DNA of 62,352 nt. It comes from Alphaproteobacteria bacterium (GTDB lineage: Bacteria > Pseudomonadota > Alphaproteobacteria > Puniceispirillales > Puniceispirillaceae). Position 1 is the first letter of the stretch, and the number at the start of each line of letters is the position of its first letter. Where the stretch lies: contig RFZL01000009.1 in assembly GCA_009920665.1 (NCBI GenBank), positions 1 through 62,352 of the forward strand, read 5' to 3'. Both the position numbers and the translations under genes were made by a program. Under the pieces are notes generated by a model. It had not been told where the DNA came from. It worked only from the letters and a program-made list of their open reading frames with translations, and searched no databases. Shown one piece after another: positions 26,243 to 30,892 of this stretch.

Positions 26243-27277
26243 ATGAAGCTCTCCCCCGCCACGCCCATGCATGACGACACGCCGTCGCTCGCGCCGCTCG
26301 TCTCGATGCTGGCGGCCGACATGGACCGTGTCAATGCGACGATCCTGGCGCGGATGGACAGCAAGATTGCCCTGATTCCACAGCTTGCCGGGCATCTCAT
26401 CGCCGCCGGCGGCAAGCGCATGCGCCCGATGATGACGGTGGCCGGCGCGATGCTGGGAAGCCGTGATGCCGCCGCGCGCGAGCCGGCGGTGAAGCTGGCG
26501 ACGGCGGTGGAGTTCATCCATTCGGCGACCCTGCTTCATGATGATGTCATCGATGAATCGGCGCTGCGCCGCGGCCGCGATACCGCCAACGCGCTGTGGG
26601 GGAATGATGCCTCGGTTCTGGTCGGGGATTTCCTCTTCGCCCGCGCCTTCGAGTTGATGGTCGAGGCCGGCGATCTGACCGTCCTTGGCAGGCTGGCATC
26701 GGCGGCGGCGCGCATCACCGAGGGCGAAATCAGGCAGATGGCCATTACCGGCCAGCCGGACACCCCGCCAGAGGATTATTACGACGTGATCGAGGGCAAG
26801 ACGGCGGTGCTGTTTTCTGCCGCCGCGGCAGCCGGCATCGAGATCACCGGCGCCAGCACGGCGCGGATCGAGGCGATGCGGGTCTACGGGATGAAGCTTG
26901 GCATGGCGTTCCAGATCATGGATGACGCGCTGGACTACACCGCCTCGGCGGATGATATGGGCAAGAATGCCGGCGATGATTTCGCCGACCAGAAGATCAC
27001 GCTGCCGACGATCCTGGCCTGGCAGGATGGTGACGCGGATGAACGGTCCTTCTGGCAGCGCACGCTTGGCGACGCCGAATTCGCCGATGGCGATCTTGCC
27101 ATGGCGCAGGGCATCCTGGCCCGGCATGACGCGGTGGGTCGTGCCATCAGCATCGCCCGCGGTCTCGCCGACGAGGCCGCTGCCGCGCTGGACCCGTTCA
27201 TGGATGATGGTGCGACCGCGCCGCTCGCCGCCGCGCTGGCCGACGCGGCGCGTTTCGCCGCCGCCCGCAGCAGCTAG
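26243..27277 (+). CDS. ispB: Polyprenyl diphosphate synthase (octaprenyl/decaprenyl type)
   Basis: A 344-residue trans-prenyltransferase making the ubiquinone side chain. The first aspartate-rich motif is LLHDDVIDES (about residues 96-105) and the second is QIMDDALDYT (about 223-232). Residues before the first motif (GGKRMRPMMTVAGAM) bind the diphosphate. The residues upstream of the first DDxxD, which set chain length, are small (Ala/Thr), consistent with a long-chain product. No strong ribosome site precedes the ATG. It converges with the phage-derived gene, with eight bases between the ends. Confidence 0.94.
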   Translation: MKLSPATPMHDDTPSLAPLVSMLAADMDRVNATILARMDSKIALIPQLAGHLIAAGGKRMRPMMTVAGAMLGSRDAAAREPAVKLATAVEFIHSATLLHDDVIDESALRRGRDTANALWGNDASVLVGDFLFARAFELMVEAGDLTVLGRLASAAARITEGEIRQMAITGQPDTPPEDYYDVIEGKTAVLFSAAAAAGIEITGASTARIEAMRVYGMKLGMAFQIMDDALDYTASADDMGKNAGDDFADQKITLPTILAWQDGDADERSFWQRTLGDAEFADGDLAMAQGILARHDAVGRAISIARGLADEAAAALDPFMDDGATAPLAAALADAARFAAARSS

Positions 27278-27284
27278 ATCAGAC

Positions 27285-27875
27285 TTACCCGGAAGTGCCG
27301 CGCAGCATCGCCGCGATATCGGTGGCGCGCCGGCCTGTCTGGGCGGCCCAGCGGCTGTCCAGCGCCTCGGCGGCGGCTTTGTTCCAGTCACCGCACCGCA
27401 CCGCAACGCGAAGACGGGTGAACCCGGCAAGGCGCGGCCCGCCGAGATTGAACGCCATCGAGACCAGCGCATGCCGACGCGCCTTTGATGCGCCGGCAAA
27501 GGCAGCACCGAACTGATCACCGCAGATCGATCTTGCCAGCGCGATGTCAGTCGCCAGCAGATAGTCGATCTCGTCACCGGCAAGCCCGCGATCGGTCAGG
27601 TTGCGGCCAACCCCGATGGTCAGCCTGCCGGCGGTATCGAGATAGGGGAAGGCGCGCCGGAACGCCTCCATCTCCAGCCGGTCTGCCACCTCCTCCAGCG
27701 CATCGGCCCAGGCGTCGGCAAAGGCCCGATCACGCCGGCGCCATTCATAGCAACGCGACCGGCAGGTGCCGGCAGCGCGGGCAGCGGCACTGACATTGCC
27801 GGTTTCCCGCAATTGCACCAGAAACGCTTCCTGCCAGCCGGGCGGGGCGCCATCAGGCTGGCGGTGGCTCGTCAT
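27285..27875 (-). CDS. Fusion of a phage terminase small subunit-like HTH domain with a T4-type lysozyme domain
   Basis: This 196-residue protein joins two phage modules. Residues about 14-72 resemble the start of a phage terminase small subunit (helix-turn-helix GNVSAAARAAGTCRSRCYEW, then FADAWADALEEVADRLEMEAF). Residues about 75-196 match GH24 lysozymes: PYLDTAGRLTIGVGRNL, ALVSMAFNLGGPRLAGF and SRWAAQTGRRA. Aligned with T4 lysozyme, Asp20 and Thr26 correspond to Asp80 and Thr86, but the catalytic Glu11 position is Ala71, with Glu70 one residue away, so activity is doubtful. No secretion signal is present. It lies just downstream of a DUF6362 gene, where a terminase gene would be in a phage. 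Most likely a deletion fused the front of terS to the back of an endolysin; domestication as a regulator is the alternative. Confidence 0.8.
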   Translation of the reverse strand: MTSHRQPDGAPPGWQEAFLVQLRETGNVSAAARAAGTCRSRCYEWRRRDRAFADAWADALEEVADRLEMEAFRRAFPYLDTAGRLTIGVGRNLTDRGLAGDEIDYLLATDIALARSICGDQFGAAFAGASKARRHALVSMAFNLGGPRLAGFTRLRVAVRCGDWNKAAAEALDSRWAAQTGRRATDIAAMLRGTSG

Positions 27876-27913
27876 GGGTGTCGGATATGTGAATGGTCTG
27901 ATTGGCAGTGTAT

Positions 27914-27947
27914 AATAGGAAATATCCTATTTTGTGTCATTTGTCAA
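27914..27947 (-). promoter_or_regulatory. Promoter with overlapping operator-like palindrome ahead of the HTH-lysozyme gene
   Basis: A palindrome with 7-bp arms, aatagga-aata-tcctatt (27914-27931), lies 39 bases upstream of the gene. On the minus strand a TTGACA hexamer (27942-27947, overlapping the DUF6362 stop) is followed 16-17 bases later by gatatt/tatttc, which falls inside the palindrome. A protein bound here would cover the -10 region. A near-identical palindrome lies at 28454-28469. The S24 repressor encoded nearby is the obvious candidate binder. Confidence 0.65.
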
Positions 27948-28426
27948 GCTGATTTCTGATCAGGCCCGGTCAATTCCACCGTGACAAGCGCCGCAAGCGC
28001 CCGTCTATGGTCACGATTCAGCGTTGTCCGGCTGCGCCGATGGCGATGGCACAGCTCGGCCCATCTGACGCCGCAGGCGCGTGCCCATAACAGCTCCCGA
28101 TGGCGCGGCGGCAGGTTCCATAATAGCATCGCCAGCCTGTCCAGATCATCGATTGCCGCAGGTGACGGCCGTGCCCCTGATACGCTGCGCGTGGCCGCAA
28201 TCGCAACGCGGCTCTCACGAATCATCTCCGGCCAGGCGCTGCGCGTGCCGGCAGGACGTGTGTCGGCGGTTCGTGGCAGCCGACCCAACGTGTCAACGGC
28301 CCGTACAAGACGCACCGCCATCGCCCGCATCTTTGCCGTGTCACCGCCAACAGCACTGTCGCGGTCTGGCGTGCCGTTACAATTTGCCTTACCGTTCTGA
28401 TTTGAAGATATCCGCGATGAATTCAT
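27944..28426 (-). CDS. DUF6362 family phage-associated protein
   Basis: A 160-residue protein whose C-terminal ~110 residues fit DUF6362: RSAWPEMIRES, PSPAAIDDLDRLAMLLWNLPPRHRELLWARACGVRWAELCHRHRRSRTTLNRDHRRALAAL. The end forms a helix-turn-helix-like segment (WAELCHRHRRSRTTLNRDHRRAL). In prophages and gene-transfer regions of alphaproteobacteria, DUF6362 proteins sit ahead of terminase genes; here the next gene downstream begins with a terminase small-subunit-like domain, which supports the phage origin. The N-terminal 45 residues are polar and poorly conserved. It is transcribed away from the S24 repressor gene. Confidence 0.8.
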   Translation of the reverse strand: MNSSRISSNQNGKANCNGTPDRDSAVGGDTAKMRAMAVRLVRAVDTLGRLPRTADTRPAGTRSAWPEMIRESRVAIAATRSVSGARPSPAAIDDLDRLAMLLWNLPPRHRELLWARACGVRWAELCHRHRRSRTTLNRDHRRALAALVTVELTGPDQKSA

Positions 28427-28443
28427 TGAGTCCGCCTCTGCCC

Positions 28444-28472
28444 TTGCCAGATGAAAGGAATTTTCCTATCAT
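28444..28472 (+). promoter_or_regulatory. Promoter with overlapping operator-like palindrome ahead of the S24 repressor gene
   Basis: TTGCCA (28444-28449), a 17-base spacer and TATCAT (28467-28472) form a well-spaced sigma70-type promoter on the plus strand. The spacer holds aaagga-attt-tcctat (28454-28469), which shares both half-sites and spacing with the palindrome at 27915-27930 (one mismatch in the outer left half-site). This suggests the repressor controls its own gene and also the divergent DUF6362 gene, whose start is 28 bases away. Confidence 0.65.
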
Positions 28473-28559
28473 GCATCATGGGTTGAGCACCATGACCCGA
28501 AAGGATCAGTTGGCCTCACCTCTCCGGATCGTGAAGACAACAACGCGGACAGATCGCCA

Positions 28560-29282
28560 ATGACAATGTTCGAGACCTCATCGCACGGCCCCTCATCGCA
28601 CCGGCCATCGGCGGCTGGCGGCGACGGGCTGGATCCGGCACGGCGGGCGGTGCGGCGCGCCGTCGACGCCACCGGGCTGACATTGAAGGAGGCATCGCGC
28701 GCATTGGGGCGCAATGACGCCTATCTGCAGCAATTCCTCTATCGCGGGTCACCGCGCCGCCTTCCCGAACAGGTGCGGCTGCGGCTTGCCGCGCTCACCG
28801 GCACCGACCAGTCGCACTTCCTCGATCCGGACCTGCAGGCATTGCAGCCGGCACGCCATGAGCGGCTGATCTGCGTACCGTTGCATGCGGTTCATGCCGC
28901 CGCCGGCGGTGGCAGCTTTGAAAGCGAAGACGATGAGGCGCAGGCTGGCCTGTCCTTTCCGCCCGATCTTCTGCGCCGCATTACGGCGGCGCCGGCCGGT
29001 GGGCTGAAATTGCTGTCTGTCAGCGGTGATTCGATGTCACCGACGCTCGAGGATGGTGATCTGGTAATGGTCGATACCGGTCGCCGCATGCCCTCGCCGC
29101 CCGGTATTTTCATCCTTGATGACGGCGTGGGGCTTGTCGCCAAGCGGGTGGATGCGATACCCAATACAACGCCGCCACAACTCCGGCTGTCCTCGGACAA
29201 TCCGGCCTACAGCAACTACCAGCGCCGGATCGACGAGGTTCACATCGTTGGACGTGTCGTCTGGTTCGCCCGCAACATCTGA
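28560..29282 (+). CDS. S24 (LexA/CI-like) phage-type repressor
   Basis: A 240-residue regulator. The N-terminal DNA-binding part (about residues 36-82) reads GLTLKEASRALGRNDAYLQQFLYRGSPRRLP, a helix-turn-helix typical of phage-like repressors. The C-terminal S24 peptidase domain has SVSGDSMSPTLEDGDLVMVD (nucleophile Ser158) and GLVAKRVD (Lys195). The hinge contains Ala115-Gly116, the usual self-cleavage bond, in a glycine-rich loop. All elements for RecA-stimulated autocleavage are therefore present, which would couple the module to DNA damage. The promoter and operator-like site lie about 90 bases upstream. It is divergent from DUF6362, as in a phage immunity region. The rRNA methyltransferase gene starts nine bases after its stop. 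Confidence 0.88.
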   Translation: MTMFETSSHGPSSHRPSAAGGDGLDPARRAVRRAVDATGLTLKEASRALGRNDAYLQQFLYRGSPRRLPEQVRLRLAALTGTDQSHFLDPDLQALQPARHERLICVPLHAVHAAAGGGSFESEDDEAQAGLSFPPDLLRRITAAPAGGLKLLSVSGDSMSPTLEDGDLVMVDTGRRMPSPPGIFILDDGVGLVAKRVDAIPNTTPPQLRLSSDNPAYSNYQRRIDEVHIVGRVVWFARNI

Positions 29283-29291
29283 GAGGGTTTC

Positions 29292-30659
29292 ATGAAGCGC
29301 CGCCATTCCGACAGAAAGCGTGAGCGTGCCGGCCGCCTGCCGCGTAACGCGGCGCCGGTGGAACTCGACATCACGCATGTCGGCGGGCGGGGTGACGGTG
29401 TCGGCACGGCGTCCTGGCGACACAATCATGTGACCGCCGACCATACGGTTTTCGTACCGGCATCGCTTCCGGGTGAGCGCGTCGTCGCGCAGCCTGTCAG
29501 CGTCAGCGGCCAGGGATTGAAGACCGTACTGAGCGAAATCCTGACCCCGTCACCACAGCGCCGCGAGCCTGACTGCGCGGTGTTTCCGGCCTGTGGTGGC
29601 TGCAGCCTTCAACATTGGCAGGATGATGCCGTCACCACATGGAAGCAGGATCTGGTCGCCGGTTTCCTGGCGCGGGCCGGTGTGGAGATTGACGGTTTCG
29701 CCCCACCCCATATCTCGCCGCGCGGCAGCAGGCGTCGTGCCGGCTTCCATCTGAAACGGCTGACCGACGGCGTTGCCGCCGGATTTCTCGAACGGGGATC
29801 AAACCGTATCATCGCCCCCGAGGATTGCAGCGTCCTGCGCCCCGAGCTGATCAACTTGCTGGACCGGCTTGCCGACCTCGCGGCGCGGCATTTCCCTCCC
29901 GGTGTGGCCATCGACGCGCAGGCCAACGGCCTCGATAACGGCATCTGCCTTCTGCTTCGCGGGCCATCAGGCTGGCATGACGGGTTGCGCGAACAGCTTG
30001 CCAGCTGGGCGGTTGATGCCGGGATCGCCCGCCTATCGGTCAGTGACAGCACTGCCGCACCGCTGACATTGCTGGCCCCGGCACCGCCGGTCCTGCGGCT
30101 TGGTGACTTCGCCGTCACGCCGCCGCCGGGCGCCTTTCTGCAGGCAACGCAGGATGCCGAAACAGCGCTTCAGCAGGCCGTTGCCGCCATTATCGATGAT
30201 GCGGCACGGGTCCTCGATCTCTTTGCCGGATGCGGGACACTTGGCCTGCCGCTATTGCCGGCCTTGTCACAGCTGACAGCCGCGGAATCGGACACCGCCG
30301 CACTCGCCGCGCTGAGACAGGCGGTCGATGCGGCCGGCCGCGGCGCCCAGTTGACCTGCATCGAGGCGGATCTGATGGACGCGCCCCTGATGGACAGCGA
30401 TCTTGACGGTTTCGATGCGGTGATCATCGACCCGCCGCGCGCCGGTGCGGCGGCGCAATGTACCAGGCTGGCCGCAAGCCAGGTGCCGGTCATCGCGATG
30501 GTGTCCTGCAATCCCGCCACCTTCGCGCGTGATGCGGCGACACTGATTGGCGGTGGATATACCATCGGCCGTCCCCGGATTATTGACCAGTTCCGCTTCT
30601 CCAGTCATGTCGAGATCGTCGCCGGATTTTCTCGTGACAACAGCACGGTGCCGGCGTGA
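29292..30659 (+). CDS. Class I SAM-dependent RNA methyltransferase, RlmD/RumA-type (23S rRNA m5U)
   Basis: A 455-residue RNA-uridine C5 methyltransferase. A TRAM-like domain (about residues 20-85) precedes an Fe-S site with Cys95, Cys101 and Cys104 (CAVFPACGGC). The SAM motif is LDLFAGCGTLGLPL, followed by VIIDPPRAGA and the catalytic cysteine in AMVSCNPATFARD near the C terminus. Members methylate U747 or U1939 of 23S rRNA; which site cannot be told here. The last four bases overlap the start of the RHH gene (GTGA). Confidence 0.92.
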   Translation: MKRRHSDRKRERAGRLPRNAAPVELDITHVGGRGDGVGTASWRHNHVTADHTVFVPASLPGERVVAQPVSVSGQGLKTVLSEILTPSPQRREPDCAVFPACGGCSLQHWQDDAVTTWKQDLVAGFLARAGVEIDGFAPPHISPRGSRRRAGFHLKRLTDGVAAGFLERGSNRIIAPEDCSVLRPELINLLDRLADLAARHFPPGVAIDAQANGLDNGICLLLRGPSGWHDGLREQLASWAVDAGIARLSVSDSTAAPLTLLAPAPPVLRLGDFAVTPPPGAFLQATQDAETALQQAVAAIIDDAARVLDLFAGCGTLGLPLLPALSQLTAAESDTAALAALRQAVDAAGRGAQLTCIEADLMDAPLMDSDLDGFDAVIIDPPRAGAAAQCTRLAASQVPVIAMVSCNPATFARDAATLIGGGYTIGRPRIIDQFRFSSHVEIVAGFSRDNSTVPA

Positions 30660-30892
30660 GGAAACGGTCCGTCAGTATCCGCGGACATCGCACCAGCCTG
30701 TCGCTTGAAGATGCGTTCTGGGACGAATTGTCGGATATCGCGCGCGCCCGTGGCATATCTGTCGCGGCCCTGATCACCGAGATCGACCGGACCCGGACAG
30801 GCGGCCTGTCCTCGGCCGTGCGGCTGTTCATTCTGGAAGATCTGAAACAAAAGGCCGCCGCTTGCAGGACAGAGGCGACCAAACTAGATTGA
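30656..30892 (+). CDS. Ribbon-helix-helix domain protein
   Basis: A 78-residue small DNA-binding protein with the pattern KRSVSIRGHRTSLSLEDAFWDELSDIARARGISVAALITEID, the ribbon-helix-helix form widespread in alphaproteobacteria (the DUF4411-like RHH_4 group). It starts with GTG at 30656, overlapping the methyltransferase stop, so translation is likely coupled. The C terminus (LSSAVRLFILEDLKQKA) is helical. Target genes are unknown. Confidence 0.85.
   Translation: MRKRSVSIRGHRTSLSLEDAFWDELSDIARARGISVAALITEIDRTRTGGLSSAVRLFILEDLKQKAAACRTEATKLD

Follow-up and report, generated by a model that had tools for sequence, protein, structure and literature searches.

What is a block of phage-type genes doing between two bacterial housekeeping genes when no other part of a phage is present? 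We examined this question in a stretch of DNA of 62,352 nucleotides (hereafter the window) from a member of the Puniceispirillaceae (contig RFZL01000009.1 of assembly GCA_009920665.1). Here, an S24 repressor, a DUF6362 protein and a fusion of TerS with a lysozyme lie side by side between genes for an IspB-like polyprenyl synthetase and an RlmD-like 23S rRNA methyltransferase. We consider it very probable that this block was left behind by a deletion in a vertically inherited phage cluster, similar to a gene transfer agent (GTA), at the ispB-rlmD site of this SAR116-type order. In intact relatives, the S24 repressor and two predicted operators lie ahead of an operon that runs from TerS to an endolysin and contains no integrase. 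A deletion of about 16 kb in the window lineage took TerL, the capsid, the tail, the holin and the active site of the lysozyme, leaving the repressor, the operators and DUF6362 intact. The remnant could do no more than regulate itself and, when derepressed, produce a fusion protein without catalytic activity, and it would be on its way to loss.

The fused gene and its deletion junction

The window corresponds to contig C193 of a genome (G000) of 2.69 Mb in 214 contigs, which is 99% complete. The three open reading frames (ORFs) described by the initial annotation were all open, and their phage origin was supported by family matches (PHROG 4044, PF00959, PF19889, PF00717 and PHROG 4). Its statement that portal and capsid genes are absent was also correct: neither a portal (profile, E<=1e-10) nor a coat protein (E<=1e-5) was found in the whole genome. 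The cluster genes therefore seem not to have been merely relocated. In the fusion protein, residues 15-76 resembled the TerS family PHROG 4044 (1.3e-15), and residues 70-183 resembled PF00959 lysozymes (4.3e-8, over the cut-off). Among the 50,697 records of the 'phages' collection, 611 matched part of the fusion and none spanned 80% of it.

The parents of the two halves were sought in related DNA; in what follows, G numbers denote genomes and L numbers denote fetched loci or contigs, both being labels of this analysis. The IMG/VR contig L083 came from a close relative, whose S24 and TerS were 93% and 92% identical to those of the window, with 83.6% DNA identity over 1.9 kb, and the TerS region of L082 showed 91.7% DNA identity to the window. 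L083 contained rlmD, S24, DUF6362, TerS, TerL and portal, and L082 and L094 (98-99% identical in the overlaps) extended this content to J. The close-relative cluster is a composite of these three contigs from S24 to J, and its lysozyme end lies outside them. The 30 last bases up to the end of codon 75 were identical in the fusion and in the TerS gene of L083. Downstream (3') of codon 75, the fusion tracked the lysozymes of G001 and G009, and the hexamer CGGCGC at the junction was present in both parent genes. Measured against the complete cluster of G016, the deletion amounted to about 16 kb. These alignments showed a deletion of about 16 kb at a 6-bp microhomology, which fused TerS codon 75 to the lysozyme in the window lineage. 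A single large in-frame deletion from the start of the late operon (TerS) to its end (lysozyme) had already been proposed, and the complete clusters at the same site and the microhomology junction bear it out. The junction sits within a 62-kb contig. A full prophage collapsed during assembly had been named as another source of the fusion. Relatives do carry the complete cluster at the site, as that idea supposes, but it was judged unlikely because different junctions stand on independent contigs of relatives, namely a 276-kb contig of G001 and the complete chromosome of G023.

The alignment of the lysozyme half revealed Ala71 in the column of the catalytic Glu, with Glu70 one position away, while Asp80 and Thr86 were kept. 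The roles of the Glu (HEG motif), Asp and Thr positions are those that we assume from T4 lysozyme. The catalytic Glu was kept in all six other lysozymes aligned (6/6); the fusion lacks this residue, by which an active GH24 lysozyme was defined here. The AlphaFold2 model of the fusion had a mean predicted local distance difference test score (pLDDT) of 81.5; the helix-turn-helix (HTH) domain and the helical lobe were modelled with confidence and the active-site lobe weakly, and a Foldseek search with this model retrieved T4 lysozyme (E ~1e-4, TM score 0.5-0.6). Uniqueness to one assembly, named beforehand in the initial annotation as a reason to reject its proposal, is what the search returned: among 61 genomes, the fusion existed as a single frame in the window's genome only. 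The named genome collection gave 5 loci, which matched the lysozyme half alone. The junction had 0 matches among the IMG/VR contigs, and the full-length lysozyme relatives found there were all distant (best 41%).

The intact cluster, its inheritance and its likeness to gene transfer agents

A complete 16-kb head-tail-lysis cluster was present at the ispB-rlmD site in G016 and G021, which belong to the family of the window's genome (f1), and in G037 and G043 of another family of the order (f2). Two further families of the order are labelled f3 and f4, and f105 is a family of another alphaproteobacterial order. In G016, where the cluster lies on one contig, it started with S24, DUF6362, TerS, TerL, a portal (PHROG 145, PF13264) and a P22-type coat (PF11651, PHROG 283). 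It continued with head-tail adaptors, a tail tube (PF18906), a 199-aa tape-measure-like protein and lambda-type tail tip proteins to J, and it ended with a porin, a GTA-family holin (PF11351) and the lysozyme; no family matched two further small proteins. The recognisable genes of G021, G037 and G043 stood in the same order. In G037, an M15-type peptidase (L162 7018-7512) occupied the endolysin place before the polyprenyl synthetase, replacing the GH24 lysozyme. In two families, the cluster carried a Gram-negative porin gene (PF13609) at its tail-tip end (L039 5937-6986; G037, G043). The tyrosine integrase (PF00589) that would mark a temperate prophage was absent from the clusters of G016, G037 and G043, the nearest lying more than 150 kb off; no profile search was made for serine recombinases. 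Neither the PHROG matches of G016 nor the lists of ORFs in G037 and G021 contained a recognisable replication gene.

The portal profile (E<=1e-10) matched 7 of the 136 genomes of the order, including 6 of the 43 high-quality ones, and all 7 matches lay at this site. The IMG/VR comparison covered 22 of the 80 loci that were returned. Five of its contigs (L083, L084, L086, L088 and L091) carried rlmD beside S24 and are therefore chromosomal (host) pieces despite their 'viral' label. In the class-wide sample, a portal match was found in 19 of 386 genomes, seven of which were compared by map (G016, G236, the G292-type f43 members G293, G382 and G455, and G361 and G492). The portal, the coat and one adaptor were common to G293, G382, G455 and G361, and no rlmD was found within their fetched stretches. 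In f105, 11 of 36 genomes matched the portal at 1e-40, and rlmD adjoined S24 in five of the eight genomes with a readable flank (G236, G532, G533, G534 and G528); in G526, G530 and G540 the contig ended too early for the flank to be read.

Distances between RlmD proteins tracked the S24, DUF6362, TerL, portal and coat distances at r=0.93-0.97 in Mantel tests, in which housekeeping pairs reached 0.94 and 0.96; the value for GAT and S24 was 0.93. FastTree trees of cluster genes had 7/8, 11/14 and 8/9 splits in common with host trees, and the conflicting splits in the cluster trees had a support of 0.88 or less. We also compared ratios of nonsynonymous to synonymous substitution rates (dN/dS) in the rlmD-linked pairs G236-G533, G532-G534 and L086-L088. 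The dN/dS was 0.01-0.15 for cluster genes and 0.09-0.19 for rlmD, and the dS was 0.22-0.76 and 0.37-0.66, respectively; in other pairs, two small head-tail proteins reached a dN/dS of 0.25-0.26. The guanine-plus-cytosine (GC) content of the G016 cluster was 0.53, compared with 0.50-0.52 in its flanks, and the values were similarly close in G037 and G236. The largely congruent trees and the selection on the genes were shown by these comparisons, and at the level of sequence the intact cluster looks resident and under selection. The prophage-type source assumed by the initial annotation was right as to phage derivation, but the parent appears to be a vertically inherited cluster and no ordinary integrated prophage.

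An excerpt of PMC9662315 lists six features of GTAs: particle proteins derived from caudoviricetes, full endogenisation, mostly vertical inheritance, packaging of mostly random host DNA, a head too small to package the own genome fully, and delivery of DNA to cells. From its genes alone, the intact cluster displayed the first three of these six, and the remaining three concern particles and transfer. The particle proteins are TerS, TerL, portal, coat, adaptors, tail tube, tail tip J, holin and endolysin. Endogenisation is indicated by the same ispB-rlmD site in f1 and f2 with no tyrosine integrase in the cluster, and vertical inheritance by the Mantel tests and common splits, with the exceptions noted below, and by a dS as in rlmD or lower. 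The block in the window lacks the particle genes, as G000 had no portal or coat match.

Among known systems, RcGTA and RcGTA-like elements (type I, Rhodogtaviriformidae) resemble the intact cluster as endogenised head-tail clusters with host-congruent trees, as far as described in the excerpt (PMC9662315). The holin provides another likeness to RcGTA, as it belongs to a family named after GTAs (PF11351). We take the RcGTA cluster to be about 15 kb long with a short tape-measure protein, as here. Unlike RcGTA, the intact cluster includes an S24 repressor with operators and an endolysin, and the control of RcGTA differs from this S24/operator control. The cluster also has a P22-type coat (PF11651), a DUF4055 portal and a lambda-type tail tip, whereas the coat of RcGTA is HK97-like according to the same excerpt (PMC9662315). 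The type I marker PF13547 (GTA_TIM tail-tip protein) was found in 0 of 16 cluster-bearing f1, f2 and f105 genomes, and the control, Caulobacter vibrioides, was positive in this search as well as in that of the 101 relatives given next. PF13547 matches were seen in G361 only of 20 genomes (G361:C42:40871-41785), which has a distant portal too, and in 1 of 101 relatives, the f2 genome G052 (G052:C85:8842-9618). BaGTA (type II, Bartogtaviriformidae), likened here by description, is also phage-derived, has 11-13 genes in about 14 kb and occurs in Alphaproteobacteria (excerpt of PMC9662315). Phages with DUF4055-type portals or P22-type coats (for example Xanthomonas phage Mallos, Vibrio phage MAR10 and Brevundimonas phage Polewnik) had homologous portals (36-37%), coats (34-37%) and TerL (40-46%) among the best matches listed. 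Their genomes measure 59-79 kb, whereas the intact cluster comprises only a late module of 16 kb, fixed at one place in the chromosome. The top TerL match among those listed (46%) was MW091529.1, a 'bacteriophage' of 18,183 bp from sewage, which may be a chromosomal GTA-like fragment. The block in the window itself resembles a defective prophage remnant in its deletion, fused late genes and leftover repressor, but its parent cluster has no integrase and resides at one site across families.

The parent cluster is a candidate new GTA lineage, and the intact clusters may serve gene transfer. We lean, with little to spare, towards a fuller account, in which the intact clusters would be working GTAs that form a lineage of their own. 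Their source would be a phage with a P22-type coat and a lambda-type tail, exapted before the split of the two alphaproteobacterial orders. Most of them would be under an S24 repressor at 18-bp operators, and in the SAR116 order they would now be disappearing in parallel through distinct deletions, of which the window shows a recent one. It is possible, though we think it unlikely, that the particles serve an end other than gene transfer and that the block is what remains of such a system. Losses this numerous point to a trait that cells can do without, as this alternative would have it, but terminase, portal and coat are strongly constrained, which a tail-only weapon would not need, and the holin is of the GTA type (PF11351).

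Losses at the site and the fate of the remnant

The site was available in one piece at 25 inspected loci; G006, G007, G010, G011, G018 and G028, whose contigs end in the site, were excluded, and partial matches such as G030, G033 and G035 are outside this count. The cluster was complete in the four genomes named above (4/25). Some packaging or structural genes remained in G000, G001, G009, G022, G040 and G056. S24 and DUF6362 (broken in G019), with the lysozyme present or not, were left in G002, G012 and G019. A whole or partial S24, with or without a lysozyme tail, was left in G003, G004, G014, G015, G020, G023, G032, G039 and G045, of which G039 and G045 belong to f4, and the lysozyme tail alone was left in G013. 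The site was empty in G017 and G038 (f3) (2/25), where the matches to the flanking genes ended about 60 bases apart. The results showed serial decay of the cluster across relatives. The initial annotation had asked whether relatives carry the same genes at this locus without other phage genes; S24/DUF6362 remnants of that kind do occur, but some relatives carry the complete cluster and others nothing.

The junctions at these losses differed. G001 had an in-frame fusion of the coat (to residue 304) with the holin, 518 aa long (L036 7699-9255), and the junctions of G002, G009 and G028 were out of frame. In the nearest genome, G002, a different, out-of-frame deletion had occurred, and TerS and the reading frame of the lysozyme were lost. 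An in-frame fusion as a mark of selection was considered and rejected, as two of five junctions were in frame (G000 and G001) and three were not (G002, G009 and G028), as chance allows.

The S24 protein of the window retained Ser158, Lys195 and Ala115-Gly116. We take the Ser-Lys dyad and the Ala-Gly site to be the self-cleavage residues of S24 repressors, and by these residues the protein is predicted to be a self-cleaving one. An 18-bp palindrome overlapped the TerS promoter in f1 and f2, and a second palindrome lay between S24 and DUF6362 on a promoter-like site. With up to two mismatches, two operator-like palindromes were present in the window, compared with 0.10 expected from shuffles, and promoter 1 of the window was almost identical to that of L083. 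The control sites had been thought functional; they are conserved and exceed expectation, and the repressor is predicted to bind both palindromes. No convincing third operator was found. Exact operator matches numbered 9 in 11 genomes, every one at the cluster. A further repressor target in G000 (one mismatch, C171:35148) was rejected, as it falls in the 3' portion of a coding gene with an open frame, which G009 also has at its own extra site, and is no regulatory site. As this extra site is inside a coding gene and the exact matches are at the cluster alone, the repressor has no visible further targets. In G011, an extra one-mismatch operator-like site was observed at an unrelated place. The DUF6362 model resembled sigma domains that bind the -35 element, with a best fold-search E of 0.086, which is not significant; the protein is possibly a sigma-region-4-like DNA-binding protein.

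Several observations weigh against a vertically inherited cluster under S24 control that is decaying in the window lineage. One-mismatch operator sites, with the exact ones counted, numbered 22 in the 11 genomes compared with 15 for the reversed control, which is background level; therefore, the exact matches alone were used. The S24 gene of G003 is open yet has no operator. Of 31 S24 stretches compared, 25 had the Ser-Met motif that self-cleavage is expected to need; the four f2 members, G019 and G528 lacked it, so that damage control through self-cleavage, should it exist, cannot apply throughout. As to inheritance, no rlmD was found near the cluster in the fetched stretches of the f105 genomes G492, G541 and G542. 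IspB distances gave r=0.84 with S24 (14 taxa) and r=0.45 with the portal (5 taxa, p=0.10), and host splits with support 0.977, 0.985 and 0.892 were absent from the cluster trees. Finally, the lysozyme half on the window branch since the G002 split had a dN/dS of 0.06 (-0.05 to 0.23) with G002 and G009, and of 0.28 (0.10 to 1.05) with G009 and G001 as comparison; the TerS half on the window branch had 0.11 (0.02 to 1.36). The frame-shifted lysozyme of G002 had a dN/dS of 0.98 (0.42 to 4.04).

These low ratios bear on whether the remnant was kept for a purpose, as had been proposed. In that case, S24 would sense DNA damage through RecA-driven self-cleavage and release the fusion as a DNA-binding lysozyme-like effector or an anti-phage or particle interference factor. 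Besides the low dN/dS, the open frames, the two conserved palindromes, the near-identity of promoter 1 to that of L083, the retained Ser158, Lys195 and Ala-Gly of S24 and the predicted folds of both fusion halves would fit it. However, the deletion postdates the split from relatives that are 84-92% identical in DNA, and therefore part of the branch is older than the deletion. The window-branch dN/dS includes this time and is no proof of constraint on the fusion; it is compatible both with a relic and with selection on the remnant. Moreover, the position of the catalytic Glu, kept in every other lysozyme aligned, holds Ala, and the fusion is confined to one genome of 61, its junction appearing in no IMG/VR contig (a relic need not appear in a viral collection). 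TerS and the reading frame of the lysozyme are lost in the nearest genome, several relatives hold only S24 parts or nothing, and the exact operators occur at the locus only. Retention for a purpose is therefore improbable. Because the active site is gone, the exact operators are at the locus only and the neighbours show all degrees of loss, the simplest and most likely reading is a transient relic that retains some autoregulation, and the remnant would be without function. An ordinary temperate phage that repeatedly inserted at an rlmD hot spot, with decay after every insertion and no long-term resident, is less probable still: phage relatives of portal, TerL and coat at 34-46% identity, the three f105 genomes in which rlmD was not found near the cluster and the lack of a portal match in 129 of the order's 136 genomes, many of them incomplete, would suit it, but the gene trees largely agree with host trees, the clusters of G016, G037 and G043 contain no tyrosine integrase (with the limit on serine recombinases given above), no replication gene was recognised in G016, G037 and G021, the GC content and dS are like those of the flank, and the portal matches in the order lie at this site alone.

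Meaning of the loss series and features of the locus

No report of this cluster was found in the open PubMed Central text among the matches listed, and the term DUF6362 occurred in no paper of that text. GTAs of known genetic basis have three independent origins according to an excerpt of PMC9662315. Another candidate lineage, present at a single chromosomal site of marine bacteria and also in a second order, would give one more case with which to compare how phages turn into host genes. The loss of such systems through cheating with deletion bias is discussed in an excerpt of PMC10883770, and with the 25 loci, which range from complete to empty, the cause of loss (cheating with deletion bias, or cost) becomes directly testable. 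The block in the window appears as an ordinary, unusually clear decay product of the parent cluster, and its value is that of a readable junction in the loss series, not of a new function. The features of the locus are listed in Table 1.

Table 1. Genes, predicted control sites and deletion junction at the ispB-rlmD site of the window (positions are those of the window).
Feature	Position	Strand	Evidence
Polyprenyl synthetase (IspB-like), left flank of the site	26243..27277	+	PF00348 4.9e-67; cluster flank in f1 and f2 relatives
TerS-lysozyme fusion ORF, 196 aa	27285..27875	-	PHROG 4044 and PF00959; model with HTH domain and T4-lysozyme-like fold
TerS-derived half of the fusion, codons 1-75	27651..27875	-	Alignment to intact TerS of L083, G001 and G009
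Deletion junction, 6-bp microhomology CGGCGC common to TerS and lysozyme	27654..27659	-	Parent alignment
Lysozyme-derived half of the fusion, without the catalytic Glu (Ala71 there)	27285..27650	-	Lysozyme alignment
Operator 1 (predicted), AATAGGATATTTCCTATT, overlaps the TerS/fusion promoter (TTGACA 27942-27947)	27914..27931	-	Kept in f1 and f2; promoter scan
DUF6362 protein, 160 aa	27944..28426	-	PF19889 8.5e-18
Operator 2 (predicted), TAGGAAAATTCCTT, between S24 and DUF6362, overlaps the S24 promoter-like site (28444-28472)	28455..28468	-	Pattern and promoter scans
S24 (LexA/CI-like) repressor, 240 aa	28560..29282	+	PF00717 2.9e-13; PHROG 4 repressor 2.4e-29
RlmD-like 23S rRNA methyltransferase, right flank of the site	29292..30659	+	Neighbour of the cluster in relatives

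After rlmD, a gene for a 78-aa protein (30656-30892 of the window) was observed beside the site in both orders, which makes it a useful marker of the locus.

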